A stretch of DNA of 64,000 bases from Sinotaia quadrata (taxonomy: Eukaryota; Mollusca; Gastropoda; Architaenioglossa; Viviparidae). Below are positions 2,053 to 64,000 of this stretch, one piece after another. The notes beneath the pieces are model-generated. The model was not told where the DNA came from and ran no database searches. It saw nothing but the letters and a program-made list of their open reading frames with translations. How positions within the stretch are numbered: the stretch's first letter is position 1; each line of letters starts with the position of its first letter. A program made the position numbers and the translations under genes. The stretch spans positions 100,926,058-100,990,057 of the forward strand of contig CM054178.1 of assembly GCA_028829895.1 (NCBI GenBank), written 5' to 3'.

Positions 2053-3598
2053 TGTCACAGTCTGATAAAATTGTCCGACTTCGCGACCCACTTGCCTTGT
2101 TTACTTCAAATTCAAATATTTGAAACCCTTGGCCCTTTGTTCAAAGCTTCCTTTTTCTAGGCGCTTCTAGAACAGGTCAAGATGTTATGTAACTTTAGGA
2201 CCATTGTCCAGTTCTCGAACCAACCACATGCTTTGCGAACAGTCACGTGATACGCAATATACCTTTCTATATATGTACCCACACGCTTCCGCTCCCTCAC
2301 TTCGAGCACATTTTAGCTAATTCCATCAGCTTACTCGGGTCGTGAGAGGCAGCCGGCGCCATAGAGAATCAAGGTACCCTTCGACTTCTCTCAAAGGTAT
2401 CATTTTATTTAATAGTATTTGCCTATGTATTGTTTAAGTATGTATTTGTGCTATGTATTATATGATTTCCATATACACTTGAGCATGGTTCAGAGAAATA
2501 GCTGAAAACCTATATGTTACGGAATATAAATTTATTGTAACCATTTTTCCATTTCTGTACTTTAATTTATATTGTTTTAATTCACTAAGAGCCAGAATGC
2601 TGCGCTCGATATGAATTCTTCATGTAATTCAATTATTGCGTGTAATTTTAATTGTAAATTGTGAAGCGCTCTGTCGGCTTGAATTACCCCTTGTATGAAC
2701 ATTAATTTAACGTTGTATCTATTTTATTGCTTCATACGTCATGACTGTTAAATGGAACACATGTGAGACGATTATATTTTTTCTAAATCTAATTGTAAGC
2801 ACGCGAGGTCGAAACTCTTTGTTCAGCGCATTTAATTGAGCCATGCCTAGGTAGGACCTGTTAGGTTGAGAATTATATCCAAACACGTTGCATCCACAGG
2901 TCGGCTCATGGTTCATGTTTCACCATGCCTCACCTGCATTAGCTTATTGGTGTAAGCGTGTCGAAATCCACTCTGAGGGCCATGCTGCAAAAAATTCCAG
3001 TTCCTAGCCACTAACAAAGGGACATCATTCCTTATGCACCACGTGTGTCGTTAAAGGGGGACTGAGGGAACGAATCAGCATGACTGAGTGTTGAGACCAA
3101 GGATACAAGAATAGAGCTAAGTGCAAAATCAAGTGTATAGATCTCAAAGGAACACTTTTCTGGCAATTTAGATTGACAAAAATCAGGCATAGGCGCGTAA
3201 AGACAGAGTGAAGACTATTCGCGTTGCATTCGATTTATTGTTAATTTGTTAAACTTTATTAAATCTTATTTTCTTTGTTAATACCTCTTAGTAGTTGATT
3301 TCTATGCACAATAGACCAATTAGATTAATTCTTAGATTTGAATGGGGGCGGATGAGCAGAAAGATTGATGACGAGTGCATATTAATTTAGAGGGGTTTAA
3401 CTGTTTTCAAATCTAGCTAAAAGTTCGCAGTTTATTAGTCTGTAAATTTGTCGTCTGAACTACAAGACGCACTTTTAATTAGTCAGATAATAAATTGAGC
3501 AACCAGTCTGCGTAGAATATGAGAGGAAGAATTAATTATATTTAAAGTCTTTTAATTATTCTAAGCAGGGTCTTTAAATAAATACTGGAAACGTAACA
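2053..3598 (+). repeat. 5' LTR of the Gmr1-like element
   Basis: 1546 bp, begins TGTCACAG and ends GTAACA, directly repeated at 8776-10321. A 65-codon antisense frame occurs at the same place in both LTRs; I do not regard it as a gene. Confidence 0.95.
2244..2300 (+). promoter_or_regulatory. Probable LTR core promoter
   Basis: A CACGTG E-box lies at 2244-2249 and a TATATATG TATA-like box at 2268-2275, about 25-30 bp before a pyrimidine-rich CTCACTTC stretch that could hold the start site. The 3' LTR repeats this arrangement, with its TATA-like box at 8991-8998. The role is inferred from motif spacing only. Confidence 0.45.
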
Positions 3599-4217
3599 AG
3601 TGTGGGTCGTCGCGGGATTGATATGTATTAAATTGTAAATTGTAACATTTTTATACATAGGGCGCATCATAACCTAGAAACGAACGAACGAACAGAATTG
3701 CCAATTGTTCTTTTGATTTTTGTATCACTGATTTTCTTTGCTTTTGTTGTGACATGTGCATGTATTCTTTTGCAGAGTAGCGTGCATGTTAGTTAATGTT
3801 GATATATTTAAGCGTAGTTAAATATGTCATGTTAGCTATTGAATGATTTATTTAGTATTGTGTTACTGAGTACTTCATTGTGAGGAGTCGAAGGTTATAC
3901 CGCCAGCTAGGAGAGTTATCGGTAGTAACAGACTTCGGACTATTATATTTAGGGTGCTAGATATAATGTGTAATGTTGTATGGTAGGAGCCGTGACATTA
4001 CGAAAGTCTTGGAACAGCGGACACTGTGACAAGCAGGTGAAACGTGTAAAGAGTTAACGCGTAATTTATTTCGGAAGGTGTTCTGAGTAAATTAAATAAT
4101 TTTTGTAAGGTTGTAGCCTAAAAGTTATTTTCGGGATAAGCGGAGTTATCGCCGACGGTTAAAACACACAATTCACGAGATACATTCTTATTGTAGCCAG
4201 CGCGCTAAGACAGTAAA
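3599..4217 (+). other. Untranslated leader with possible primer-binding site
   Basis: Non-coding leader between the 5' LTR and the gag start. A TGG-starting stretch at 3603-3620 (TGGGTCGTCGCGGGATTG) lies four bases past the LTR and could pair with a tRNA 3' CCA end. I could not assign the tRNA. The start codon context is AAAATGG at 4215. Confidence 0.5.
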
Positions 4218-7200
4218 ATGGATCGCAAACAGGTTATCGAAGACCTGAAAGAAGCCGGTATCATGATAGGATATCAAGGTGACGAACTGACGAACTACAT
4301 CAAAACTGAGTTAGCTCTAGAGAAAGAGAGAGCGGAGAAAGCGGAAAAGGAGAAAGAAAGAGAAAGGGAGGAGCGTGTAGCTGCTCGCGAGCTGAAAAGG
4401 TTAGAAACTGAAAAGTTAGCCGAAGCTAAAAAGTTAGAAGCCGAAACAGAAGCGAAAAAGCTAGAAACAGAAGCCAAACGCATCGCCGCAGACGCGGAAA
4501 TAAAACGGTTAGAATGGGAAGTAAAGAAACTAGAAGTTACCAATCCAAACCGTGATCGCAGAAGCAGTGGTGATTCGCGTTCTAGCGATGGAAATAATCA
4601 CAGTAGAATTGAAAATATCATTCCAAAGATAAATATGGTCCCATTTGATGAGAACAAAGATCAAATAGACGCGTATTTAAAAACGTTTGAAAAGTTAGCC
4701 AGAGCAACAAACATTCCAGCGGAACATTGGGCGATAAATTTATCGGGGTTATTGCAGGGCAGTGCGAAAAACGAGTTCAATAAGCTTAGCGATTCTGAGT
4801 CAGATAATTACGACACAGTCAAGGCCGCATTATTGAAACGTTACAAACTCACAGCAGATACATACCGACGTAAGTTTAAACAGGCCACTAAAGCCAGTTC
4901 AGAGACGCACGCACAGTACATACGACGTGTAACTGACTTGTTCCAAAGATGGATAGATCTAGCCGAAACTCCACAGACGTACGCAGGTCTTAGGGATGAA
5001 ATGATAAAAGACCATATTCTCGGGTCATACAAATCAGATCTACTGATTCACTTAGCAATAAGGGAAAAATCTACGCTAGAGGAGATAGGCAACGCCGCCG
5101 ATCGCTTTGATGACGCACATTCTCAATTCTCGAACGCACACGCGAACAACAAGTCTCGACCGAACGAACCGCAGACTCGAAAGGATAAGAAAAATGACGG
5201 GAAGGCACATAGTGAGCGTGATGATAAAACATCTAAACCCGATACTAAAAACAAGTCCGACAAACAGAAAGATAAAAAGAATCTTGCATGTTACACTTGT
5301 GGTGATAGTGGCCATTTTTCACGAACATGTCCTGGAAAGAAAACAGCTAAGGTTTACGCAGTAGAAAGTCATACACCTAAAACAGAAAAGTCGAATCGAA
5401 CACCAGTACAGGCAAACGGTCACGATACAATCGCTTTGCTTGATACAGGGTGTGAGCTAGACGCTATTGTAAATGCATCATTAGTTAACCGTACCGACTA
5501 CACAGGGGAGACAATCTCTGTCACCTTTGCAAACGGCGAACAAGACATTTTACCAGTAGCTGAAGTCTCGATTGTTTCAGACTTTGTAGAAGGAACAGTC
5601 AAAGCGGCAGTTATGGAAAACTCACCGCATGACGTGATCCTTGGTTGCAAGTATGTTTTGCCGTGCAAAAAACAAACTTCAATCGAACCACCACTGGTTA
5701 ACGCTGTAACCAGAGCAGCGAGTAGTAAAGACAAATCTGTAACTGCACCGATGTCTGCCGCACCAGCCGTAGATAAAGCAACAGTTAGCGAGATTAAAAT
5801 ATTACAAGCTGAGGACGAAACACTAGACAAGTTACGCAGACAAGCTGTACTTGTTAGTGACGTCAACACTGACGATTCGAATAAGAAAGCGTGCATTATT
5901 CTGAAAAAGGGTTTATTGTACCGCTATTCGAAAGTGGGAGACGAATTTCGGAAACAATTAGTCGTTCCACAAACCAAACGAAATGACGTATTACGATTAG
6001 GTCATGAGAGTCTTTTTGGTGCACACATGGGTGTACAAAAAACAACTAGTCGTATTACAAGTGAGTTTTATTGGCCGGACATCACTGCCGATATCCGTAG
6101 ATTCGTGTTAAGTTGCGACACATGCCAGAGAACACAGTCTAAAAATTCAATCAGACCCGCACCGTTAGGAGAGCCTGAACTGATCAGTGAACCCTACAAG
6201 CGCGTAGCATTGGATTTGATTGGGCCTATAATACCCACATCAACGAGAGGTAATCGATACGTGCTGACCACTATTGATTACGCAACAAGATTCGCCGACG
6301 CAGTACCATTGAAAAATATTGATACTGAAACTGTCGCCGAAGCCCTTTTCGGTCTTTGGAGTCGTGTTGGAATTCCTACTGAAATTTTGACGGATCAGGG
6401 GAGTCAATTCATAGGCAACGTAATGAAGGAAGTAAATCGTTTACTTTCCATCAAACATCTTACTTGCACACCATACCACCCCCAGGCAAATGGTCTGATT
6501 GAAAAATACAATGGGACATTAAAAACAGCACTTAAAAAGCTCGCCACAGATAAACCGAAAGACTGGGACAGATACATCCCTGCCCTACTATTTGCATATA
6601 GGGAGGTGCCACAATCTTCCACCGGGTTTTCACCATTTGAGCTACTTTACGGACGTACTGTACGCGGACCGATGATGATTTTGAAGGCACTTTGGACTGA
6701 TGAAAAGACAGATGACGAAGTTAAGACAACTTATACATACGTCACTGACTTAAGAAACCGTCTTGAAACTATAGGCAAGATAGCACGGGAAAACTTGACG
6801 ATAGCTCAGTCTAGACAGGCAGAATATTACAATAAGCACACCAAACCTAGAGAATTTGAAGTTAATGACAAAGTGTTACTGTTGCTTCCTGAAGCACATA
6901 ACAAACTTCAGATGAAATGGAAGGGGCCCTTTGTAGTTACCGCCAAGCTAGGGGGACTGAACTATAAGGTGCAGACAGGAAAGAGAGAGAAAATCTTTCA
7001 TGTTAACCTACTCAAAAAGTACATAAGCCGTGAGGATCAAACCACTCAAGCTGATTTTGTCGTAGCGACGATAGTTACAGAAGACGAGGGGGATACTGAT
7101 TGCGTCACTGGTACCTTACCAAACTGTCCTCTACAGACGGACGAAACTGTCAAAGACGTTAGGGTAAATGAAGCCTTGACAGAAAGACAGAAAAAAGAAG

Positions 7201-8552
7201 TGAATGAATTGCTTAATGAGTTCTCATCTACTCTGACAGACAAACCAGGGTTGACAGACTTAATAGAATTTTCACTGAAGCTGACTGACAACAAACCGAT
7301 ACGTTTGAAGCCGTATCCGTTGCCACACGCTAAGATAGATGACGTTAGACGTGAGATTAAGACTATGCTAGATCTAGGGGTCATAGAGAAGACTGACAGT
7401 GCCTACGGATCACCCATCGTGTTGATTAAAAAACGTGATAACTCGTTCCGTTTTTGCGTAGACTACCGCAAACTCAATCAAGTGACAGAGTTTTGTGCCG
7501 AACCTCTTCCTGATCCGGATCTCATCTTCACTAAGCTAGCTAACGCTCATTACTATACCAAAATAGATTTGTCACGCGGTTTTTGGCAAATCAAGGTCAA
7601 GGACACTGATCGACACATACTAGCTTTCACTACACCAGTAGGAAACTACACATGGAAAGTTATGCCTTTCGGAGTTTCAAACGCTCCAAGCATTTTTTCT
7701 AAAATGATGCGGTCATTGTTAGAACCACTGTACGGACGTGGAGTTGAGAACTTCATGGATGATTTAATTCTAGGCACCCAGACATGGGAGGAGCACTTAA
7801 CACTCTTACGAGATGTGCTAGCCAGATTAAAACAAGCCAACCTCACTGCCCGCCCTACGAAGTGTGAAATAGCACAATTCTCCTTAGACTTCTTGGGACA
7901 CAAGTTGAGTCATGGAACTATGTCGCCAAGTGAAGCTAAGATAGCACAACTTAAGGACACTTCACAACCGCTAACAAAAACACAAGTTAGAAGTTTTCTT
8001 GGTCTTGCTAATTACTACAGAAAATTCGTACCAGATTTTAGTGCCATTGCATGTCCTCTGACTGACTTGACACGTAAGAATATGCCTACAAAAGTAGTGT
8101 GGACTGATGCATGCCAAAACGCTTTTGACACACTGAAATCTAGACTGACTTCAGATTTAGTTGTTAAACTGCCAGATTTGACAAAACCATTCTTGTTAAG
8201 GACTGATGCTAGCAACACAGGATTAGGAGCAGTGTTATTACAAGAACACAATGACACCAAACACCCAGTTGCATATGCAAGCCGTAAACTCACAACTACT
8301 GAACAGAAATATTCCACCAGTGAAAAGGAATGTCTTGCAATAGTTTGGGCCATAAAAAAGTTCGAAAACTATTTGTACGGAAAAACCTTTGTCATTGAGT
8401 GCGATCACCAGCCGTTGGCCTTTCTCGGACAGGCGCAATTTACGAACAGCCGTTTAATGCGTTGGTCTTTGTTTCTGACACAGTATGACGCAAATATTCA
8501 TTACATCAAAGGGTCTTTGAATGTTGGCGCAGATTACATGAGTCGTGCTTGA
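4218..8552 (+). CDS. Gag-Pro-Pol polyprotein with integrase before reverse transcriptase
   Basis: Single 1444-residue frame. Gag starts with a charged coiled coil (about residues 25-110) and ends in a CCHC knuckle (C358, C361, H366, C371). Protease follows with LLDTG (D409). Integrase comes next: zinc-binding H596, H603, C633, C636; catalytic D666, D726 and E762 with DD35E spacing; then a GPY/F module (about 899-935). Reverse transcriptase follows (about 1025-1240) with KIDLSRG (D1117) and FMDD (1179-1182). RNase H ends the protein (D1330, E1371) at a terminal ADYMSRA. The protein would package, reverse-transcribe and integrate the element RNA. No frameshift separates gag and pol, so how the Gag:Pol ratio is set is unclear. 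ATG 4218 is chosen because it opens the gag coiled coil; no upstream in-frame extension is apparent. No envelope frame follows. Confidence 0.95.
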   Translation: MDRKQVIEDLKEAGIMIGYQGDELTNYIKTELALEKERAEKAEKEKEREREERVAARELKRLETEKLAEAKKLEAETEAKKLETEAKRIAADAEIKRLEWEVKKLEVTNPNRDRRSSGDSRSSDGNNHSRIENIIPKINMVPFDENKDQIDAYLKTFEKLARATNIPAEHWAINLSGLLQGSAKNEFNKLSDSESDNYDTVKAALLKRYKLTADTYRRKFKQATKASSETHAQYIRRVTDLFQRWIDLAETPQTYAGLRDEMIKDHILGSYKSDLLIHLAIREKSTLEEIGNAADRFDDAHSQFSNAHANNKSRPNEPQTRKDKKNDGKAHSERDDKTSKPDTKNKSDKQKDKKNLACYTCGDSGHFSRTCPGKKTAKVYAVESHTPKTEKSNRTPVQANGHDTIALLDTGCELDAIVNASLVNRTDYTGETISVTFANGEQDILPVAEVSIVSDFVEGTVKAAVMENSPHDVILGCKYVLPCKKQTSIEPPLVNAVTRAASSKDKSVTAPMSAAPAVDKATVSEIKILQAEDETLDKLRRQAVLVSDVNTDDSNKKACIILKKGLLYRYSKVGDEFRKQLVVPQTKRNDVLRLGHESLFGAHMGVQKTTSRITSEFYWPDITADIRRFVLSCDTCQRTQSKNSIRPAPLGEPELISEPYKRVALDLIGPIIPTSTRGNRYVLTTIDYATRFADAVPLKNIDTETVAEALFGLWSRVGIPTEILTDQGSQFIGNVMKEVNRLLSIKHLTCTPYHPQANGLIEKYNGTLKTALKKLATDKPKDWDRYIPALLFAYREVPQSSTGFSPFELLYGRTVRGPMMILKALWTDEKTDDEVKTTYTYVTDLRNRLETIGKIARENLTIAQSRQAEYYNKHTKPREFEVNDKVLLLLPEAHNKLQMKWKGPFVVTAKLGGLNYKVQTGKREKIFHVNLLKKYISREDQTTQADFVVATIVTEDEGDTDCVTGTLPNCPLQTDETVKDVRVNEALTERQKKEVNELLNEFSSTLTDKPGLTDLIEFSLKLTDNKPIRLKPYPLPHAKIDDVRREIKTMLDLGVIEKTDSAYGSPIVLIKKRDNSFRFCVDYRKLNQVTEFCAEPLPDPDLIFTKLANAHYYTKIDLSRGFWQIKVKDTDRHILAFTTPVGNYTWKVMPFGVSNAPSIFSKMMRSLLEPLYGRGVENFMDDLILGTQTWEEHLTLLRDVLARLKQANLTARPTKCEIAQFSLDFLGHKLSHGTMSPSEAKIAQLKDTSQPLTKTQVRSFLGLANYYRKFVPDFSAIACPLTDLTRKNMPTKVVWTDACQNAFDTLKSRLTSDLVVKLPDLTKPFLLRTDASNTGLGAVLLQEHNDTKHPVAYASRKLTTTEQKYSTSEKECLAIVWAIKKFENYLYGKTFVIECDHQPLAFLGQAQFTNSRLMRWSLFLTQYDANIHYIKGSLNVGADYMSRA

Positions 8553-8775
8553 TGCCATCAAGTGCCGGTACTGATAGAATGTTGTTTAATCAATTAACTG
8601 AACCCTACGGATTCCTTCCTGTAGATATGAAATATAGTTGCACACTTTATTTCTAGGAATGTCGAAATTTTTTTTGTGTAAATTTTTCTTCATTGTGGAC
8701 TTCTACATTTTATCATACATAATTTGTAGGAGGCATTTTATCTTTGGCAAGATAAACGCCTCAAAAGCAAGGGGG
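8553..8775 (+). other. 3' untranslated segment with polypurine tract
   Basis: Short non-coding segment between the pol stop and the 3' LTR. It ends with the purine run AAAAGCAAGGGGG (8763-8775), the expected plus-strand primer for reverse transcription. Confidence 0.8.
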
Positions 8776-10321
8776 TGTCACAGTCTGATAAAATTGTCCG
8801 ACTTCGCGACCCACTTGCCTTGTTTACTTCAAATTCAAATATTTGAAACCCTTGGCCCTTTGTTCAAAGCTTCCTTTTTCTAGGCGCTTCTAGAACAGGT
8901 CAAGATGTTATGTAACTTTAGGACCATTGTCCAGTTCTCGAACCAACCACATGCTTTGCGAACAGTCACGTGATACGCAATATACCTTTCTATATATGTA
9001 CCCACACGCTTCCGCTCCCTCACTTCGAGCACATTTTAGCTAATTCCATCAGCTTACTCGGGTCGTGAGAGGCAGCCGGCGCCATAGAGAATCAAGGTAC
9101 CCTTCGACTTCTCTCAAAGGTATCATTTTATTTAATAGTATTTGCCTATGTATTGTTTAAGTATGTATTTGTGCTATGTATTATATGATTTCCATATACA
9201 CTTGAGCATGGTTCAGAGAAATAGCTGAAAACCTATATGTTACGGAATATAAATTTATTGTAACCATTTTTCCATTTCTGTACTTTAATTTATATTGTTT
9301 TAATTCACTAAGAGCCAGAATGCTGCGCTCGATATGAATTCTTCATGTAATTCAATTATTGCGTGTAATTTTAATTGTAAATTGTGAAGCGCTCTGTCGG
9401 CTTGAATTACCCCTTGTATGAACATTAATTTAACGTTGTATCTATTTTATTGCTTCATACGTCATGACTGTTAAATGGAACACATGTGAGACGATTATAT
9501 TTTTTCTAAATCTAATTGTAAGCACGCGAGGTCGAAACTCTTTGTTCAGCGCATTTAATTGAGCCATGCCTAGGTAGGACCTGTTAGGTTGAGAATTATA
9601 TCCAAACACGTTGCATCCACAGGTCGGCTCATGGTTCATGTTTCACCATGCCTCACCTGCATTAGCTTATTGGTGTAAGCGTGTCGAAATCCACTCTGAG
9701 GGCCATGCTGCAAAAAATTCCAGTTCCTAGCCACTAACAAAGGGACATCATTCCTTATGCACCACGTGTGTCGTTAAAGGGGGACTGAGGGAACGAATCA
9801 GCATGACTGAGTGTTGAGACCAAGGATACAAGAATAGAGCTAAGTGCAAAATCAAGTGTATAGATCTCAAAGGAACACTTTTCTGGCAATTTAGATTGAC
9901 AAAAATCAGGCATAGGCGCGTAAAGACAGAGTGAAGACTATTCGCGTTGCATTCGATTTATTGTTAATTTGTTAAACTTTATTAAATCTTATTTTCTTTG
10001 TTAATACCTCTTAGTAGTTGATTTCTATGCACAATAGACCAATTAGATTAATTCTTAGATTTGAATGGGGGCGGATGAGCAGAAAGATTGATGACGAGTG
10101 CATATTAATTTAGAGGGGTTTAACTGTTTTCAAATCTAGCTAAAAGTTCGCAGTTTATTAGTCTGTAAATTTGTCGTCTGAACTACAAGACGCACTTTTA
10201 ATTAGTCAGATAATAAATTGAGCAACCAGTCTGCGTAGAATATGAGAGGAAGAATTAATTATATTTAAAGTCTTTTAATTATTCTAAGCAGGGTCTTTAA
10301 ATAAATACTGGAAACGTAACA
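8776..10321 (+). repeat. 3' LTR of the Gmr1-like element
   Basis: 1546-bp direct repeat of 2053-3598, ending GTAACA and followed by the target duplication ATGGT. Near its end AATAAA motifs occur that could serve polyadenylation. Confidence 0.95.
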
Positions 10322-11537
10322 ATGGTTATTATTATTGTTAATTAATTAATCGTCCATAACTAATTACAAGTGATGAGAATCTTAATTTATTTAATTTATA
10401 TTTGTCTCTCTCACTTGGCAGATATGTGGGCACTGTAAACGTTTTCTCTCTTCCACAACATTAAAGACAAACATTTACTGTTACACAAAATTTTCATAGG
10501 TGGAAAACTTATTATTAAAGGAGAAGACATTCAGTCTTTAATCCATATTTAGTGAGCCCCCATCTGCTGACTTTCTTCTACATAAGGTTATCAGTATGTG
10601 TAAGAAGCTCAATAAATTTAACAATAAATTTATTAAATCAACAATCAATTATACATATAGCAAATGCAGTGAAAAAATTACTTGCCATCAATACTTCCAT
10701 GAATCCATGTTTCAATAATTTTTATATTTATAAAATCTTATATCCTAAATATAGTTCAACAATAGTGTCAATACAAATCACAGGATAGTTCTTATCAGAG
10801 AACAGAAATGGAGTTATTAGAGATAAGCGATAATAGCTTCTACATAACCTTTTCTAGACAAAGCTGCAATGTTCTTTTCACACGCTTTTCATATCAAATT
10901 CACAAGTTTATTGTCCATGTCAATTCCACATGTTTCTCTCCTCGTGTAAAAACTGATTTGCTGATATTTTCTTGAAGTTAACCTGGGCATTCATTTGCCT
11001 TACAAGCTCCTTCAAGCAAAACAACAATTGTAAAAAATTTCAAGTAATTTCTTTGTACCAGAAATTGCTCAGTGTAGTCAGTATACCTTGCCATCATATA
11101 TCAACGGAGTGTAGTGTATTATTTACACTTAAATACACTTAAATGATAAATGCTTCCCTTGTCTACCACAGTCATAGGGGGTTATAATCAATAAATCAGG
11201 AAATTCAGATAACATGAGAAAAGCTGCTTTGTCACAGTAAAAATACAATTAGGGAACAAATGCTAAATTTCCAATTTACTCCTTTACCCCTTTTTAACTC
11301 CATTCTTACATTCAAGTCTTAACTTACAGTTTTTTATTATATTTATTTTATTATATTTATTTACAATATTTATTAGCATGATACTTGCACATATAATAAA
11401 TACAGCATATCAGTTTTATGAGCAGGTTCACTAGAAACAATGTCAAGTGTTTAGTATACCACATATTAGCATCATAGTTCACAATTTGCAGAAATAATAG
11501 TCTACTCATATAATACATCTTTACCTAAAACACAAAT

Positions 11538-12702: not shown

Positions 12703-12855
12703 CCCCTCCAGTCATATGGACAGGCACTCCAAGTGCCTTCAAGTGTTCATCCGGAAACCCAACCTTCTCGGCCTGTGGTGGGTACTCAAGCAGGGAGGGG
12801 GAAGGGACCACCTCCCCCTATCCCTCCCAAACCACGTTTTGCTCCAAGCAGGAAG
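12703..12855 (+). CDS. PATJ: PATJ/MPDZ-like scaffold, proline-rich exon B
   Basis: A 153-nt exon (51 codons) from acceptor ACTAG|CCCCTC to donor AGGAAG|gtaaca, both in phase 0 and so in frame with exons A and C. It encodes a proline-rich stretch including PPPPIPPKPRF, a likely SH3-ligand-type motif, surrounded by Ser, Gln and Arg. A second possible acceptor CAG at 12709-12711 would remove three codons without changing the frame. Supported by phase continuity, composition and splice sites; there is no domain to confirm it. Confidence 0.65.
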
Positions 12856-13494
12856 GTAACAATACATAGGGATATATCCCTTTCATATTCCTTAAATCTC
12901 ACATTTCATAAACCTCTCACTGGCGCCAGGTTTGATTCTTGTGCATGCCCTTCTTCCTTTTTATCCACTACCTCCTCCCCCTCCCCATCCCATTTAATGA
13001 GGATTGGGTTTGCTTTCATTTAGAATATTCTTTTTGACCAATAATTCTGCATGTGCAGTAGTACTTGGTTTATGCTTTGATACCTGTTAATTCAGCATGC
13101 TTTGATTAAAATGCATTTGTCATCTGAATGTTTATTTGTCATGTACAAAAATGTCTTTAATGATTTTATATTATCCAATTTGGATAGTACTACTACTGCA
13201 TTTAATGCTTCTACCTTTGAGATTAAACCATGAAGAAAGCTAGCAGTTTGTAAAATAATAAAGGACTAAAATGGTGAATTTACAGTTACATATAGACAGT
13301 CATATTTAAGATAGAAGATTTGCATAAACAACATTATGATATTTAGACATGACAAATTCTTTTCATGGAAAGCACTCATGTATACATATTTATAAAGATT
13401 TGGTTAAATAAATACTTTCATTGTCTTTGGTATGAACATAGACTGTACGCACCTACTAGCAAGTTAGGTTGGTATTAACTGTACACTCATTTTT
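12856..13494 (+). other. Intron 2, start
   Basis: AT-rich intron after donor gtaaca. No recognisable gene. Confidence 0.6.
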
Positions 13495-14760
13495 AGTCAG
13501 TCTATATGCAAATTTTGTTTAGTCAGCATATTTGCACAGTTTATATGCAGTTTTGTTTAGTCAACCTATTTCCACAGGCAATATGCACATTTTGTTTAGT
13601 CAGCATATTTGCACATTCTGTATGCAGTTTTGTTTAGTCAGCCTATTTCCACAGGCTATATGCACATTTTATTTAGTCAGCCTGTATGCACATTTTGTTT
13701 AGTCAGTGTATTTCCACAGTCTGTCTATATGCAATTTGTTTAGTCAACCTATTTCCACAGGCTATATGCACATTTTGTTTAGTCAGCATATTTCCACAAG
13801 CTATATACACATTTTATTTAGTTTATGTGCACATTTTGTATAAGTCAGCACATTTCCACAGGCTGTATGCACATTTTGTTTATTCAATCTATATGCACAT
13901 TTTGTTTAGTCAGCATATTTCCACAGGCTATGTGCACATTTTGTTTAGTCAACCTATTTCCACAGGCTGTGTGCACATTTTGTTTAGTCAGCCTATTTGC
14001 ACAGGCTATATGCAGATTTAGTTAAGAGCCTATGTCGACAGGCTATATACACATTTTGTTTAGTCAGCATATTTCCACAGACTATATACACATTTTGTTT
14101 AGTCAGCCTGTTTGCACATTTGTTTAATCAGCCTATAAGCACCTTTTATTTAGTCAATGTATATGTACACTTTGTTTAGTGAGATTGGTAATTATCAGCC
14201 TACATGCATATTTTGTTTAGTGAGATTAAAGATCATTAGCTTATATGCACATTGTGTTTAATGACATTGGTGATAGTCAGCCTATTTGCAAATTTTATTT
14301 AGTAAATTTGGTGAGTCAGCTTTCAATGTATATTTTGTTTAGTAAAATTGGTGATAGCCTATATGCACATTGTTTAGTGACATTGGTGATAGAGAGCCTA
14401 TTTACAAATTTTGTATAGTGAAATTGGTGAAAACTTATATGTAAAATTTGTTTAGGAGATAGTAGTCCTATACACCTAATTTATTAGTAAGATTTTTTGG
14501 TCATAGATTATAATCACCCTTTATATACTTTATTTAGTAAGATTAATGATGGTCACCCTGTACATACTTTATGTTTAGTACAATTAGTGATGGTCAGCCT
14601 ATACATACATGTACTTTGTATAATAAGTTTAGTGATAGTCATCCTATTCTTACTTTCTAATAATAAGATTAATAAGATTAGTGATGGTCACACACTGCAT
14701 ACTTTCTGTTTATTAAGATTGGTGATTGTCAGCCTATATACCTCTTCTGTTAAGTGAATA
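13495..14760 (+). repeat. 39-40 bp minisatellite
   Basis: Tandem units of about 39-40 bp built on TATGCACATTTTGTTTAGTC plus AGCCTATTTCCACAGGC. The array is clear from 13495 to about 14220 and increasingly diverged to about 14760, where units keep only TTTGTTTAGTGA and GTGATAGTCAGCCTAT. Open frames rich in Cys, Phe and His here come from the repeat and are not genes. Confidence 0.85.
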
Positions 14761-16598: not shown

Positions 16599-17404
16599 GA
16601 TTGTGTGATGTGAATGCCACCTTAGTTATTGGTTATGATTATTATTATTAATCACACATAGCTAATTACAAGTGATGAGAATCTTAATTTATGTTATTAA
16701 TAATTCTCCAGCAGACACCACTCAGCTCTTTCACTTGGCGGATATGCAGGTGCAGTAAACGTTTCCTGTCTTCCACTATATTAAAGATAAACATTGTCCA
16801 TTACACAATATTTCTGTAGGTGGAAAACTTCTTACTAAAGGAGAAGTCCATCTTTTAATCTATATTAAGCAAGCCCCCATCCACCCACTTTGTTTTACAA
16901 CATACAGTTATCAATATGTGTAAGAAGGTCAATAAATTTAACAGTAAATTTATTAAATCAACAATCAAATATACAACATATGAACATAATCTAAGAATGT
17001 TGACATTTACATCACTTCACAGCAATATTTGATCAATGCTGAATAATTATTCAGTTAACTTACCATAAGCTAACGATCGCCGTTATGACCGGACTCTAAT
17101 TATGTTCAAATTCAAATTGATCAGAGTACTTCTTCAGCAAAGAAACTTTAGGTCTGTCCCCACTGGATGAGTTTGTTATGAACAAAGTGTGAGACTATTA
17201 GTCAGAAAAACTACTCATCCAGTTGGAACTGGTTTGGATTGTATCAGCAGTTTTCTAGCATATTTTCAACCCAAGTTGTTTACTCCAATTTGGACACTTA
17301 AAAAAAATATCATCATAAGGAGTGCCCAAGATTGGATTACTTTGACAATTTAACAATTTATATTAATAATTAAGGGATAGGCAAATTTACTCTGCCACAG
17401 ATTG
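16599..17404 (+). mobile_element. Solo LTR, family X copy B
   Basis: Unit 16604-17399 (796 bp) starts TGTGATG and ends CTGCCACA. It is flanked by GATTG at 16599-16603 and 17400-17404, a perfect 5-bp target duplication. It aligns with copies A and C at both ends but lacks roughly 0.85 kb of their middle, so it is an internally deleted solo LTR. Short inverted termini (TGTG/CACA) fit an LTR. Confidence 0.7.
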
Positions 17405-17459: not shown

Positions 17460-19416
17460 CAACAGTTAATGTAGTTTGTTGAATTGTGTTCCATTGTCAG
17501 ACTTCATGGGGAATCCCCACGTGGCCCACACTGACAACAATGCCTCTGTGACTCACACAGTTTCTATTTTTGCATAGCGCGATGGCCTTGGGGTATCGCA
17601 TCACAAAGTCCACAATCATCAAAATATAGGAGTGTCCACTCATAGACCATTGGTGCTAACAGTCTATGGCTACATGGTTGAACAGTACATTGGTTAATAG
17701 TGTATCTCCTAACGGTATGGATTTCTGTGTATTTTTTGTTGTTGTGCGCTGACAAATGTCACATGATTTACAAAAATTTTTAATGTCATGCATTAAGCCT
17801 GGCCAAAACAAATCTTTATATTTTGGTTGTCTTCTTGTCACTTGTATGCCTCCATGTTAAACTATCATGAATGAGAGTAAGAATTTCTTTCCTTTTTGTC
17901 TGGGGCATGACTACTTGCTTACAGCAATTACCCCCTTTCTTTGTCTCTCTGTACAAAATTCCTTTCTTGTACACATACTCTACACATCCACTAGCGCCAT
18001 TGCTCACATGTTTGTCCACTACAAATTTACATCCAGCATGTCATCTGTCTGCTGTAGCATTTTAAATACTTATGGTATAGTATTTGCTATAGGTCTGGTG
18101 TTTATGGTCAGAGGTTTGTCACTTTGTCTTTTGCTGCTTGCCCTAGTCTCAGCTATATGTATGTGTGTGGGTACTTGATTACACATCTCAGGATTTGGGG
18201 AAGGGTAGAACATAACGACAACCTAAAATTCCTTGATACATGTAATTCATCAAGACTGCTGCTTGTAAGTCTCCTTGTCACATAACTTGTCTCAATGCAG
18301 ACTTTTGCTATGAGTAATATATCACATACCATTAGCATATGACACTGATACTGTTTCTCCAGTATAGTCCTTTTTGTCTACTAACATGGCATCAAGAAGT
18401 ACAGGAAAACTACACCCAGTGTCTAAAACAATATTTATTTCTTTGTCCCCACAAAACCATGAGTCATGTTAACTGGATGCATCCTTGTCTTCACTGTTTT
18501 TTATCACACAGACACAGTTTGGTAAATGCATGTACGATCATGTGCCAAATCATGTGCCAAATGTCCTCGCTTGTTATAGTTGTAACACACCCTAGCCTAG
18601 GGCTGTTCTCTGTCATCTTTGTGGCTTAATTTGGGGGTGGGGCTTAATTTCTTCTTTAAAACTTTTTTCCTTTCCCCAAAACTACTGCTTTGGAATAATC
18701 CTTTATTTACACCAGTGCAATGCACTGTCCGGCTATTTTCAGTACAAATTTCACTGGATTTACCATTTTGTGGTTGCTTTGTGTTGCATTATAGTGGTTG
18801 GCCCACACAGCTATATCATCTAAATCTTTATGGTCCCTCTCAGCCAAAAATGTGATCAAGTACGGCCTTTGGTTCTCCATCATGTTTTCTTTAATACACA
18901 GCTCTAAGTCCGGAGAAACTTGTCTTGATCTCTGCCAGTGTAATCTTTTTCTTGAATAAGCGATGTAACTTAGAGTGATATTGGTGGTGAATAATGCAGT
19001 TTCTTTTTTGCATGTGCCTAAACAGTTTTCAGTATTGCTCAGCTGAAATTTTAAATCTTATGTGTGAAGCTTTGCCTCATTTTTGGGCAAGGTGTGGTAC
19101 ACATCATTTGGCTGTCTGGTAATAAACAAGACACATTTATTGCACATTGCTACTTTGGAATTTAGTGTGCTTTGGCCAAACGTTCAAACTGAATCAAATA
19201 TTCCTCTATGTTTTCTCCTTTATCGTCAAAACTTTGGAAAAGGATTTGCACAATACATTTGTCACATCTTGGCATGAAATGACTCTCAAAGACATTTGCA
19301 TCATCTACACCCTCTGGATCTGTTCTGACTGAACCCTCCCCCTTCTTTGCATTAGCTTCAGCTAGTTTGATTTTTACCTCTAAACTGTTTAGGCACATGC
19401 AAAAAAGAAACTGCAA
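17460..19416 (-). pseudogene. Decayed Gmr1-like retrotransposon: gag, protease and integrase remnants
   Basis: Read on the minus strand from 19416 down. A gag-like stretch (19416-19162) includes ENIEEYLIQFERLAKAH, matching the capsid style of the intact element. A damaged CCHC knuckle follows near 18590-18545. A protease stretch at about 18460-18320 has VLDTGCS, then DYTGETVSVSYANG, very like the intact element. Next are an integrase zinc-binding region (about 18019-17760, with CDICQRT) and core fragments with HVAIDC (near 17662) and SDNGTQF (near 17496). Several stops and frameshifts break it. Protease is followed within about 150 codons by integrase with no RT between, the same unusual order as at 4218. 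No LTR was identified for it; family-X copy B lies alongside at 17399, possibly by chance. Confidence 0.8.
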
Positions 19417-22400: not shown

Positions 22401-24235
22401 CTTAATGGTTTGCTCGGGGTTTTGTGGAGCATGGAGCATCATTCTTGTTGTTTGTGACTGCTAACACTTGGTGGTGTCATGGATATAATATGTTCTTCAG
22501 TGCCTTGATTTTGAGTTCTGGTGGTGAAATGGAACTTTGGATATTTTTTATGTGCACTGTTTTTGGAATGTCTTGTTAGTGGTAGTTTTATTTAAGTGTA
22601 AAATACTTCTGGTTCAAATTCATTGTTAGCCTTGTAAAATAATTTGTAATTCTTTATTATTTTAATTTTTCATTATAATTGTTTGGATCATAATTCTATG
22701 CTATTGACAGTTTTTATTCACTGATTAGGCTACTTGTACCTTCCTACAGATTTGACATTAGTCAACTAAAAATTGTAATAAAAATAAAAATTTCTTAACT
22801 TCTAAAATTAACACTTGTATTTTTGTACAACAATTTCTTATGTATATAAGTTTTTGTTGTTTTTAATAAACATATCATCAAATAATTATTCTCTTTCCAA
22901 ACTTAGTCAAAAAGAAAAAAATTAGATCTTGTTGAATTATCCACTACTAGAAATGTTTAAATTCTTTAAACCTTTATTTAGAGATACGTTTTCTTGAAAG
23001 TTGAAAGAATAATAGCATGTCTACTTATATTTTGCTTTAAAAATTTCACTGTAGAAATATCAGGTTGTGTGCAATAGATATTTCTTGATCAGGCTAGACT
23101 TTTAGAGATGGTTAGGTTCTAAAAAACATAAACAAAAATAAAACAAATATGTTTTATATATCTGTCAACATCCTCAGCATATGCATCGTTAAAAAATGCA
23201 CTGATGAAAACAGTGATTTGAGTGCCAAAGGACCAACAGTTGAGCATTAGGTTTTTCTTCAGGAATCTTAGTGTGTGTGCATAACCATATCATTTGATCA
23301 TCTAGTCTTGTGAATGAAGGCCTTTGGACTCTCACACTTGAGCAGAAATGTATGTGTTCTGCTGCAGAAAGACTAGAACTCTCTCAATAAGGTCTCTGTC
23401 AGGAAGCAGGAAACACCACACCAATACTAAGGTAACTAGCTCACTGTCTGCATCATTGTAGTAGAACTTGATTGGAGCTGATTGCTTTATTTATTCTTGT
23501 GTGGATGGATGGATGAATATTTTGTTTGAAATGAGTTAACAAATAATTTGGTGGATATCCAGTTTGAAATGAGTTCAGAATAATGTGGTGGAGAAATTAC
23601 TTGCTTCTATTCAGATTTGTCTAGTTTTGTTTCTGTTCAGTATGACTTTAAACTTTGGTAAATTTTGTGAATGAGTTAAATCTAAAAAGAACATAAGAGT
23701 TAATAAATAATAAAGTTATTTTTTTTAGTTATAATGTTAATAAAATACATGACAACTGCAGAAAAAGGTTTATTGAAATGAACGTAACATTGTTAGTTAA
23801 TTTTTATTATTTTTGCTTATTACTTTTCTTCATTAATTATTTCTGGCACTCAATCTGGGCTGCACATGTTGAAATTCCAGTGATTTCCTGAAGGAGATAT
23901 ACTCTCAATATAACTGCCAACTTTCCCTGGCCATATTCCAAAAAGTTTAGGTGGAACTGTTGGTATTGTCCATTACATGTATTTCTTAGATGGGGATTTA
24001 GCCTTGTCTGCCTTCTTCACTTTCTCTGTTCTTGTTTTTGGGGAGGATGGAGCTGGGTCTTATTCATTAATACTCTAATAGGTCTGTTTCAGCATTACAT
24101 TATTAATATCAATGGCTTGTTTCTGTTCTAATCATGCCTGTTTCAATCTCATGTTGTTTACATCACTGGTTCGTTTTTATTCTGTTTTTTCTTTCCAGTC
24201 TCCATAAGGATTTGATATATATTTGAGTTTATGGT
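19441..24235 (+). other. Long stretch of intron 2 without recognised genes
   Basis: AT-rich intron sequence. Open frames such as 22123-22464 look random and match no family that I recognise. A CACT microsatellite at 21787-21813 is the only clear simple repeat. Confidence 0.5.
21787..21813. repeat. (TCAC)n microsatellite
   Basis: Six perfect TCAC units plus a partial one. Confidence 0.9.
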
Positions 24236-24735
24236 TTATTCAGAGGGTGTAATTTATAATTCATTCAAGGGTCATAATTTGTGATTCATTCAGGGGTCTT
24301 AGTTTGTGATTCATTTAAGGATTGCAATAAAGTGGCTCATTCAGAGGGTGTAATGTATAATATAATTCATTCGAGCATAATAATTTGTTATTCATTCTGT
24401 AGTCATAGTTTTTGATTCATTTAAAGATTGCAGTTTATGGTTCATTCATGTGGTGTAATTTATGATTCATTCAGGGGTTGTAGTTTGTGATTTATTTAGG
24501 GATTGTAATTTGTGGTTCATTCAGGTGTACAGTTTGTGATTCATTCAATGAGTGTAATTTATAATTCATTCAGGGGTTGAAGTTTGTGATTCATTTAGGG
24601 ATTGTAGTTTATGGTTCATTTAGGAGGTGTAATTTGCGCTTCATTCAGGGGTCAAAGCTTGTGATTCATTCAAGGGTTTTAGTTTGTGATTGATTTAGAT
24701 GGTTGAGTTTGTGGTTCATTTAAGGGTGCAGTTTG
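24236..24735 (+). repeat. Minisatellite of about 28-30 bp units
   Basis: Degenerate tandem array based on GTAATTTATGATTCATTCAG and GGGTTGTAGTTTGTGATTCA phrases, with many small indels. It is non-coding. Confidence 0.8.
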
Positions 24736-25718
24736 TAGTTTTCATTATTTTTGCTTGCATGTAATATGTACTTGAACCAGCAGTTGCACAATCTCTTTCT
24801 AAATCCTAGCTGCAAGTCATGGTTGTACAGTTCATCCTTTTGCCAGTTGAGTTCCAGAAGCTTGATGCTTTGTTTCTCTATCAAGTACTCAGAGTCTCTG
24901 GTGCATTCTTGGATCAGGTTTACTTTAACTCATACTTGTCTGATCCAGCTTGGATTTTATACGCATTCATCAATACTTATATATTTGGAAGGAGACCCTT
25001 GTCATTCTTATATGAATATAGCATGCTGGATTTGTAGTATGCATATTTAAATTGTCACAATAGCTGCTAGATTATTATAAAACCACTGCCACATCCTCTT
25101 CTTTCTCCTTTCCTCCTCTTGTGGGTTTATCATTACTGGCAGAGAAATTTACTTTTGTCTTGGTATAGAAAGTGATTATTTATGTGGTTATGAATTCATA
25201 TTAAAAGTCCATCTTTATATAGTAAAAATAATAATTATCTGAATGGGAGGGAGGTGGGGGTGGACCCTTACCCCCATCCAGTTCAATTTCTGTACTTCGT
25301 ATACAGTGTTCAACTTCTTGAAGCCATAAATCTAACTAATGCAGACAGACAGACATAGAGACACATTTTGGGGCTTTATTTATTAGATTATTATTATTCT
25401 CCATAATAATTTTTTTTCTAACAAAGCTTTGAGGTTAAACTTGTACTTTGTCATTTTAACTCTTTTGTGGTTTAAGACATAATTATATTGTATCCTTTGA
25501 TATTTAAAAAATAAACTTAATATATACATACACTCTCTCTCTTAAAAATGTGTGAACATGTATACATGAGTGTATATATTCTAACAAGAATAGTAATGTG
25601 TGCATATGCATGCATTGTATGTACAAATGATGTTTTAGAGCTTGGTAACAGATGGCAAAGAGGTAGATTAACACAGCACTCTTTGATCAATATGTTGGCA
25701 TTGATATACTGCATTTAA

Positions 25719-47539: not shown

Positions 47540-49320
47540 TGGATCTTATTATAGATATATGTTAGCAGTGAAAATGGATGAAAGTGTTTTGGTTGTAAAA
47601 ACTTGTTAGTAGTAAAATGGACTGAAAATGCCAGGTTTGTAAAACTTGTTAATAATTAAAATAACTGAAAGTGCTTTGGTTGTAAAACTTGTTTGTAGTG
47701 AAAATGACTAAAGTGCTAAAGTTGTAACACTTTTTAATAGTGAGAATAGCTGACAATACTAGGGTTGTACAAATTGATTCAAAGTGCTAGGGTTGTACAA
47801 ATTGTTGTTAGTAGTGAAAAATGACTGAAAATGCTATGGTTGTAAAACATAGTAGTGAAAATGACTAGGTTGTACAAATAGTTGTTAATAATGAAAATGA
47901 GCAACAATGCTAGGTTTGTTCAAGTTGTTAATAGAAAATTACTGAAAATGCTACGGTTGTAAAGCTTGTTGTTAGTAGTGAAATTGACAGAGAGTGCTAG
48001 TGTTGTAGTACAGGTTAATAGTGGAATAGACTTTTAGTGCTAGAGTTGTATAAATTGTTAGTACATGTAGTGAAAATGACTAAAGTGCTATGGTTGTAAA
48101 ACATATCAATAGTGAAAATGACTAGGTTGTTAGTAGTGTAAATGACTAAAAATGCAAAGTTTGTGCAAGTTGTTAATGGCTGAAAATACTATGTTTTTAC
48201 AAGTTGTTCATAGGAAAATAGCTGAAAATGCTAGGGTTAGTAAACTTGTTAGTAGTTAAAAATTACTGAAAGTGCTAAGGTTGTAAAACTTGTTGTTAGT
48301 AGTGAAAATGACTAAAATGCTTGGGTTGTACAAGTTGTTAGTAGTAAAAATGACTAAAAATACTAGGGTTGTAAAACTTGTTAGTAGTGAAAATGACTGT
48401 TAATGGTTGTACAATTTGCTTTTAGTACTGAAAATGCAAGGGTTGTAAAAGTTATTATTAGAAATGGAAATGATTGAAAATGCTATGGTTGTAAGACTTG
48501 TTAGTAGTAAAAATGTCTGAGTGTTAGAATTATAAAATTGTTTGTTTAGCATACATAGTTGATAGCTGGAGAGCATGCACAAATGTAAGTGTTACTGTAT
48601 GCAACTGGTTGTTTAGAATAGAAAATATATAAATGAAAGTGCCAGTGTTACATATGTTGTGATTTTGTTTTTATTATTGAAAACATATGTGTTAGTGTAA
48701 CAAAACTGGTTGTTTTGTAAAAATATGAATGAAAGTGTTGTTTTTTTTTAAAAAGAAATGTTACCAAATTAATTTTGAGGTATACAGAATGACAATGGCA
48801 GAGCTGCTTAGTAGTGAAAACATAATACAATAATGAAAGTATCAGGGTTAGAATAGATGATCATATGTGAATAAAATAAAGCCAGAGTTGTAGAACTGGT
48901 TGTTTGGTCAGAAGATTATATTAATTGAAATGTATTGGGGTTGTGAAAAATGTTTTAAAAAATGTTTTAAATATATTTTTTTGGTGAATGAATGAAAAAA
49001 ACTGTCAAAGTTGTAAAACTGGTTGCTTGAAATGAGAACTTGTATAAATGAAAGGGTCAAGGTTGTTTAAGAGAGCATGTATTAATGAAAGGGTCAAGGT
49101 TGTAAAACTGTTTGTTTAAGAGAGCATCTATTAATGAAAGAGTCATGGTTGTAAAACTGTTCTTTTAGAAAGGAAACAATAAATGAAAGTGTGAGGGCTT
49201 AAAATTGGTAGCTTGGTAGAAGGAACTAATATACTTGTAAATGAAAGTGTTGTGTTTGTAAAAGTTTTCTTTTTTTTTTTTAAGTAAGGAAACATACATG
49301 AATGAAATGCTACTGATAAG
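47540..49320 (+). repeat. Minisatellite of about 42-45 bp units
   Basis: Many diverged units built from GTTGTAAAACTTGTTAGTAG, TGAAAATGACTGAAAATGCT and AGG, with the clearest copies at 47540-48530. From 48530 to 49320 units are longer and degenerate (TGAAAGTGTTAGGGTTGTAA-like). It is non-coding. Confidence 0.85.
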
Positions 49321-62089: not shown

Positions 62090-62990
62090 TTCACATTGTC
62101 ATCAATCCACAGTAAAGACTTAAAAAATGCTTGATATCAATGAGGCACATTTTCATCATTCTTAATAAAGACTTGACTTTAAAAAAACATTTGATAACAA
62201 TGTAGCACACTGTCATCATTCCACAGTAAAGACTTGACTTAGAAAAACACTTGATAACAATATAGCACACTGTGATCATTTTACAGTAAAGACTTGACTT
62301 AAAAACACTTATAACACTGTAGCACACTGTTATCATTCCATATAAAGACTTATAAAACACTTAATTTAATAACGATGTAGACCACTGTCATCATTCCATA
62401 TAAAGACTTGACTTAGAAAAACACTTGATAACAATGTAGCACACTGTGATCATTTTACAGTAAAGACTTGACTTAAAAACACTTATAACACTGTAGCACT
62501 GTTATCATTCCATATAAAGACTTGACTTAAAAAACACTTAATAACAATGTAGACCACTGTCATCATTCCATATAAAGACTTGACTTAAAAAAAACACTTA
62601 ATAACAATGTAGCACACTGTCATCATTCCATATAAAGACTTGACTTAAAAACCCACTTAATAACAATGTAGCACACTGCAAACATTCCACAGTAAAGACT
62701 TGACTTAAAAACAGTTGTTAACAGTGTAGCACACTGCCATTATTCCATATAAAGAATTGACTTAAAAACACTTAATAACAAAGTAGCACACTGTTGTCAT
62801 TCCACAGTAAAGACTTGACTTTAAAACACATGATAACTCAATGTAGCACATAGTCATCATTTCAACTTGAAAGTTCAAAGACTTGACTTTAAAAAAAAAA
62901 CACTTGGTAACAATGTAGCACACTGTCATCATTCCTTATGAAGACTTGACTTTAAAACACTTGATAATATTGTAGCACACTTATACAGTA
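62090..62990 (+). repeat. Minisatellite of about 58-62 bp units
   Basis: About 14-15 units sharing CATTCCATATAAAGACTTGA, CTTAAAAACACTTAATAACA and ATGTAGCACACTGTCAT. Some units carry CCACAGTAAAG in place of CCATATAAAG, giving two interleaved variants. An antisense open frame over the first units is a repeat artefact. Confidence 0.9.
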
Positions 62991-64000
62991 AAGACTTTTT
63001 TTTTTTTTAAACTTGATAATTTTGACTTTACATGAATTTTATTTGATATTGGAACATAACTTCCCCCTCCACCCCAAGATGTCAAGATGTGCACATGTTA
63101 TCATGAGGTTTGTTTGTTATTCTAGGGTGGGTCAGTGCCTTTTGTTTTATGGTAGAATGTGGTGTGATTTTAATAAGAGTCATAAACAGAGTAAAAGTAT
63201 GAAAGATAAAGAGATATGAACCTTTGTTAGAATTAGAACAAGTTACTGTTTGCTTTGTGATATTTCAATATATAATAAGTGAACACGTAATTCATGGAAT
63301 AGGAGTAATAAGACAACTTCACAAACCAGTGAAACACAGACACTAAAGGATATGTGGGTTTTTTAAACTCTTACTGTAAAAGACAAAGTAATAAAAGAAG
63401 TTGTTGAATTTTAGAATAATTGTTTGCATTTTGGTTTTGCATTGGATAATTATAGAACTATGAACAATAAATGTTTTAAAAATTGTAAAGACTTTCTGCA
63501 TGAATGAGACATCTGTAACATTATTTAATTGTAACCCAAGACATATTTGTAACTTAACATTTATCTTCAATTTTCACAGAAATGCAGTATAATACACCAC
63601 AGATTGTGATTTAAAATTTGTTTTGCAAAATTTCCATGACACATGCATTTGATTAGTAGAGCTAATTCTTTGAAAGTGGGTTGTATAGATGAAAATATTG
63701 AAACTTAAAGCAGAGTATAACTATATACTACCTTACAGAACTATGACATAAATAGATTCACTTGTTTTAGTTGTATTTTTAATTGTAATACTGGCTTTCC
63801 ATTGTAAATGGCATAAGATACACATTTTCAAATTCTAGGCTATTGTTTATTATAGTTTTGAATTGCTTGGCCTTTGTCATCACTATTTTCTGCTACTGGT
63901 TATTCAGTCTTATTTTATTTAATGCATCTCTTAACTCACATCTAGATGTTTGACCTGAAGTTTTAAATGGATAACAGTAACAATTATATGGCTAGAGGTA
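62991..64000 (+). other. Intron 5 sequence to the window end
   Basis: AT-rich sequence; no gene, exon or repeat is recognised. Confidence 0.5.

Follow-up and report, generated by a model that had tools for sequence, protein, structure and literature searches.

An apparently complete, recently inserted retrotransposon of Sinotaia quadrata that very probably belongs to the integrase-first, Gmr1-like lineage of Ty3/gypsy

The stretch of Sinotaia quadrata DNA analysed here (64,000 nucleotides of contig CM054178.1, forward strand positions 100,926,058 to 100,990,057; the window) carries what its sequence very probably marks as a recently inserted, apparently complete long terminal repeat (LTR) retrotransposon of the integrase-first, Gmr1-like lineage of Ty3/gypsy. 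Its coding part is a single unbroken open frame, in which Pfam families follow each other in the order Gag, protease (PR), integrase (IN), reverse transcriptase (RT), and RNase H (RH). IN is located upstream of RT and not last in pol, the position that marks the ordinary Ty3/gypsy clades. The features of the frame, in window coordinates and residues of the translation, are as follows:

4218–8552, + strand: Gag-Pol frame, 1,444 codons
4593–5132, + strand: Gag capsid region, about residues 126–305, placed by alignment, model, and Foldseek; positions approximate
5286–5333, + strand: Gag zinc knuckle, residues 357–372 (PF00098; CYTCGDSGHFSRTC at 358)
5403–5648, + strand: aspartyl protease, residues 396–477 (PF13650, E 1.4e-4; DTGC at 409)
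5964–7019, + strand: integrase, residues 583–934 (PF17921, PF00665, PF22938; zinc site, DD35E core, GPF motif)
7425–7907, + strand: reverse transcriptase core, residues 1070–1230 (PF00078; FMDD at 1179)
8100–8486, + strand: RNase H, residues 1295–1423 (PF17919, PF17917)

The Pfam scores for the IN zinc site, the IN core, RT, and RNase H range from E 4e-11 to 5e-40, and chance similarity is hence not an issue; the protease scores weaker, slightly under the curated Pfam cut-off. Within IN, Pfam places Integrase_H2C2 at residues 583–641, rve at 659–755, and a C-terminal piece at 903–934. The zinc site, read by eye, is Hx6Hx29Cx2C—a pattern search for an Hx4H integrase zinc site gave no match in the frame—and the catalytic residues are D666, D726, and E762, the last two being separated by 35 residues. 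A KGPF motif starts at residue 902. Frame, Pfam families, and motifs thus agree with the initial annotation, which had described one unbroken 1444-codon frame with the order zinc knuckle, PR, IN, RT, and RNase H. Its description of gypsy-like motifs in a copia-like order holds as well: the closest solved relative is Ty3 both for RT/RNase H (E 1.8e-75) and for IN (E 4.4e-35), and the 13 Pfam families that reach E 0.1 (two of them being RVT_1 and RT_RNaseH) include no copia-type RT family, for which we take RVT_2 to be the Pfam name.

The complete element spans 2053–10321 (8,269 bp) and is wider than the frame initially reported. LTRs, a target-site duplication, and a polypurine tract—the hallmarks of an LTR retrotransposon—are all present:

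2048–2052, no strand: target-site duplication, left copy, ATGGT
2053–3598, + strand: 5' LTR, 1,546 bp, with TG...CA ends
3599–3617, + strand: expected primer-binding region (candidate), directly after the 5' LTR
3618–4217, + strand: remaining untranslated leader; contains upstream ATGs and, with its end at 3775, an acceptor-like site
8763–8775, + strand: polypurine tract AAAAGCAAGGGGG, with one C inside, abutting the 3' LTR
8776–10321, + strand: 3' LTR, 1,546 bp
10322–10326, no strand: target-site duplication, right copy, ATGGT (5 bp, as on the left)

In a self-comparison of the window, the two LTRs are identical, with 0 differences over 1,546 bp, which sets an upper limit of ~0.2% on their divergence at 95%. 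The insertion is hence young, unless the assembler made both LTRs alike. Directly to the right of the element begins a dispersed repeat of ~350 bp, whose copies at 10322–10655, 16630–16988 (16630 onward), and 34442–34103 (34442 downward) are 77–78% alike. Joined, the two flanks align across the insertion point to 16604–16946 (75%), and that copy bears a single version of the target, while the copy at 34442 aligns from the insertion point onward only. Such a pattern is expected if the element duplicated its target close to the margin of a repeat that was already there. The leader as a whole (3599–4217) holds 11 upstream ATGs, or 36 when these are counted from a guessed cap site in the LTR; a spliced leader may be made with the acceptor-like site.

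The domain order is not private to this copy. An RT/RNase H search returned 5,311 matches at E 1e-20, and domain order was read in the best 120 of them: a script counted 109, 8, and 3, and the reassignment by hand of five tandem ordinary gene models brought this to 104 IN-first (P0001 included), 13 RT-first, and 3 RT only. As a guard against rows chosen by their RT, the best 120 of 3,263 matches to the integrase were ordered too. Here, 108 show IN–RT (for two of these, the RT match is as short as 41 and 46 residues), one a tandem IN–RT–IN–RT, and 11 lack RT; the order RT–IN does not occur among these 120. Apart from the near-identical P0001, the IN-first relatives among the matches listed share 44–87% identity in RT. 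Their named hosts comprise 16 mollusc species, 10 echinoderm species, the tick Ornithodoros turicata, and the newt Pleurodeles waltl, as tallied by hand from the records' own labels with the domain order rechecked; contaminants may be among them. These hosts do not bear out the initial description of the lineage as rare. The closest named integrase among the matches listed is that of the apple snail Pomacea canaliculata (65%), a species for which the RT match is small (41 residues, 22 bits). Two predicted proteins of Littorina saxatilis, P0144 and P0146, combine a SCAN-type Gag and an integrase with PF01661—which we take to be the Macro domain—and show no RT match.

Two of these relatives bear on the integrity of the sequence itself. 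An assembly join, or a chimera of two elements, around 7000–7300 had been named as a possible source of the unusual order, and nothing beyond the odd order speaks for it. P0001, one contig from another source, runs across this junction, covers residues 140–1444 in the IN-first order, and is identical at 1,301 of 1,305 residues, that is, with 4 differences. P0002 shows this order too, its identities being 84% in IN and 87% in RT (865 of 1,051 residues overall). We hence leave next to no room for an artefact of assembly.

A further relative lies within the window itself:

17500–19254, − strand: decayed second integrase-first element, recognised by tblastn pieces of Gag, protease, and integrase

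Read from 19254 to 17500, this relic gives Gag, then protease, then integrase, in five pieces at E 1.8e-11 to 5e-15 and one at 4e-5; it carries stops in all three frames, and no RT was found in it by tblastn at E 1e-3. The order of its pieces points to the integrase-first type, as an ordinary gypsy element would show RT after the protease. It weighs against the idea that an ordinary Ty3/gypsy element had its integrase moved in one copy by a private rearrangement. This idea draws on RT and IN being Ty3-like and on ordinary elements keeping IN last, but it is at odds with the relic, with an order common to 104 of the best 120 RT matches, and with the grouping of the IN-first rows in the first trees described below; we regard it as practically discounted.

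Trees were calculated separately for RT/RNase H and for IN. They are quick trees without bootstraps, in which the ordinary rows are high scorers and not a chosen panel of named clades. The first pair holds the window's element together with 39 IN-first and 11 RT-first rows, out of 104 and 13 such matches. In both, the IN-first rows form one side of a branch, with support by the Shimodaira–Hasegawa-like approximate likelihood-ratio test (SH-aLRT) of 100 for RT/RNase H and 92 for IN, and the element pairs with P0002. For the second pair, eight rows were dropped and five added, including the newt row P0126 and the ordinary-order P0124. Here, the element, P0002, P0006, P0008, P0010, and P0107 form one group in both trees, with support of 93 each. 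A grouping of RT and IN with conventional gypsy clades, which the initial annotation had held to be the sign of a one-off rearrangement, was not seen with these rows: the IN-first rows stand apart from the ordinary-order ones in both trees (with an RT support of only 44 in the second pair). P0124 has the ordinary order of RT before IN, and its Gag matches that of the window at E 8.6e-12. It is a possible pointer to an ordinary-order ancestor, to judge from its sequence; neither second tree places it as sister.

The trees also bear on a mosaic origin, in which a gypsy RT backbone anciently acquired its integrase from another LTR lineage, yielding the copia-like order. For this, one can cite that the midpoint-rooted RT tree puts the IN-first group nearest to fish and algal rows (support 93), that the IN tree leaves the nearest ordinary kin unsettled, that the deep sisters are uncertain, and that the element's near kin other than P0002 do not form one group in the first IN tree. 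However, IN is Ty3-like, no copia RT family is called, and the same six rows group together in both second trees. An exchange of this kind is thus improbable, if less so than the private rearrangement and the assembly join discussed above, and we retain an integrase-first, Gmr1-like lineage as the better reading.

Gag offers a second line of comparison. The SCAN domain (PF02023) is called by Pfam in Gag of all six relatives scanned, and the Gag of the window aligns with its relatives through the SCAN stretch, at about residues 210–303, the second half of the capsid region. An AlphaFold model of Gag with 58 rows has a mean predicted local distance difference test (pLDDT) value of 80.4 and a predicted template modelling (pTM) score of 0.59, with 162 of 283 residues at a pLDDT of at least 90. 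Its best Foldseek matches are the PNMA2 and Arc capsids. SCAN domains rank lower: 4e6s (2.5 Å over 82 columns) and 4bhx are matched with probabilities of 0.98–0.99 and E values of 0.33–0.84. Taken together, relatives, alignment, and model make a capsid of the Arc/SCAN kind likely for this element. For frogs, SCAN is described in over half of the Gmr elements and in no other frog element type covered by that account (PMC4131045), and the domain has been linked to the gag of Gmr1-like elements in two further papers (PMC4592553, PMC3424704).

Several points weigh against the Gmr1-like assignment or against parts of it. In the Gag of the element itself, Pfam makes no SCAN call, not even with the threshold relaxed to E 10, and Foldseek gives no match at E 0.001 for the Gag model. 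In the second trees, the IN-first rows are still one side of a branch; its support is 91 for IN, yet falls to 44 for RT, where the newt row P0126 fills 45% of the columns. A scan of the 64-kb window found no tRNA genes to compare with the candidate primer-binding region. The likeness to Gmr1 is set by printed anatomy, the trees holding no named Gmr1 sequence, and none of the matches listed in the RT, Gag, and integrase searches is a sequence named Gmr1. A 2018 survey of molluscs, which uses Gypsy Database references, tabulates 21 gypsy clades, and none in that tabulation is named Gmr1 (PMC6238403). Since the survey shows no Gmr1 clade there, the IN-first elements of molluscs may lie outside Gmr1 proper in RT trees.

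On the other side stands the printed anatomy itself. The Pol order of Gmr1 is given as PR-IN-RT-RH (PMC2582038), and two further texts treat the upstream integrase as the mark of the Gmr1 clade (PMC8220671, PMC6238403). The order found here agrees with that description, which bears out the initial comparison with the Gmr1 lineage (PMC2582038, PMC8220671). The first Gmr1-like elements of protostomes are credited to crustaceans (PMC3587641), and a survey of annelids lists Gmr1 as one of five gypsy clades found in several phyla (PMC8556966).

How the element would multiply can be sketched from general knowledge of LTR elements. The 5' LTR would drive an RNA that serves as both messenger and genome, and a single polyprotein would be made and cut by the element's protease inside a Gag particle. 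RT and RNase H would then make the double-stranded copy, the first strand being tRNA-primed near 3599 and the plus strand primed from 8763–8775, and the integrase would insert this copy via a 5-bp staggered cut. After cleavage of the polyprotein, the unusual domain order should matter little. Gag and Pol are indeed in one frame without a shift, as initially described; this is, however, not peculiar to this copy, as the fish elements Gmr1–Gmr4 discussed below have it too. Of the 74 IN-first relatives that reach 1,350 residues, 73 contain a Gag match in the same protein, so that one frame is usual in the lineage. Gag and Pol being separated by neither a frameshift nor a stop, the most likely means of keeping Gag in excess over the enzymes is post-translational, through unequal cleavage and turnover. 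Tf1 of fission yeast, a one-frame element with the ordinary RT–IN order, attains its Gag excess in this way. This intact young copy would lend itself to studying two questions: does it matter where in the polyprotein the integrase lies, and by what means does a one-frame element maintain its surplus of Gag?

On a wider level, we tentatively suggest—and hold it possible rather than probable—that the gypsy elements which combine the integrase-first order with a SCAN-type capsid make up a large lineage, spread through bilaterians and common in molluscs and echinoderms, where it has gone unrecognised. The reason for this would be that surveys sorted their gypsy elements only by trees of RT/RNase H. 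The basis of the suggestion is the contrast between the 16 named mollusc species and the 21 clades tabulated in 2018 without Gmr1 (PMC6238403). The suggestion is tempered by Gmr1 being already listed in several phyla (PMC8556966) and by a Ciona element being counted in the Gmr1 clade, in a passage whose citation may be that of Cigr-1 (PMC8220671). If it is true, some MolGy clades, or the Cigr-1 clade, of the tabulated mollusc survey would be integrase-first elements under other names (PMC6238403), and the capsid type behind the vertebrate SCAN domain would have a broader distribution than is apparent from vertebrates. The gag type that the relatives carry is regarded as the source of that domain (PMC4592553, PMC3424704).

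Other parts of the window show features of their own. The segment 54031–54385 closely matches its own reverse complement, at 94.5% over ~355 bp, and is possibly a fold-back element. In the self-comparison, tandem repeat arrays lie at 13492–14738, 24226–24740, 47560–48545, and 62092–62997, their shifted copies being 66–82% alike. Two long + strand frames, 431–1207 and 12703–13020, are proline-rich with stretches like PPxY and SH3 ligands and resemble host exons; for 431–1207, no Pfam family was found at cut-off.

Compared with known systems, the finding fits an already described kind, as the order is what the literature gives as the mark of Gmr1; a mild novelty lies in how many mollusc hosts there are. 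Ty1/copia has the PR-IN-RT-RH order in common with this element but differs in its enzymes, as RT and RNase H here match gypsy-type Pfam families. Ty3, on the contrary, is the closest solved relative in RT/RNase H and integrase, yet its polyprotein has the opposite order, with RT (598–1008) preceding IN (1085–1449). The Gmr1-like elements reported from cod, other fish, Ciona, crustaceans, an annelid, and frogs share the PR-IN-RT-RH order within Ty3/gypsy (PMC2582038, PMC8220671, PMC3587641), and the SCAN-type Gag described for them is that of this element's relatives (PMC4131045, PMC4592553)—with a Pfam SCAN call in those relatives, unlike in the element's own Gag. Like this element, fish Gmr1–Gmr4 have a single Gag-and-Pol product, tabulated for them at 1506–1634 residues; as a whole, the element is longer than they are: 8,269 bp with LTRs of 1,546 bp, against 6,058–6,465 bp with LTRs of 337–518 bp (PMC11117352).

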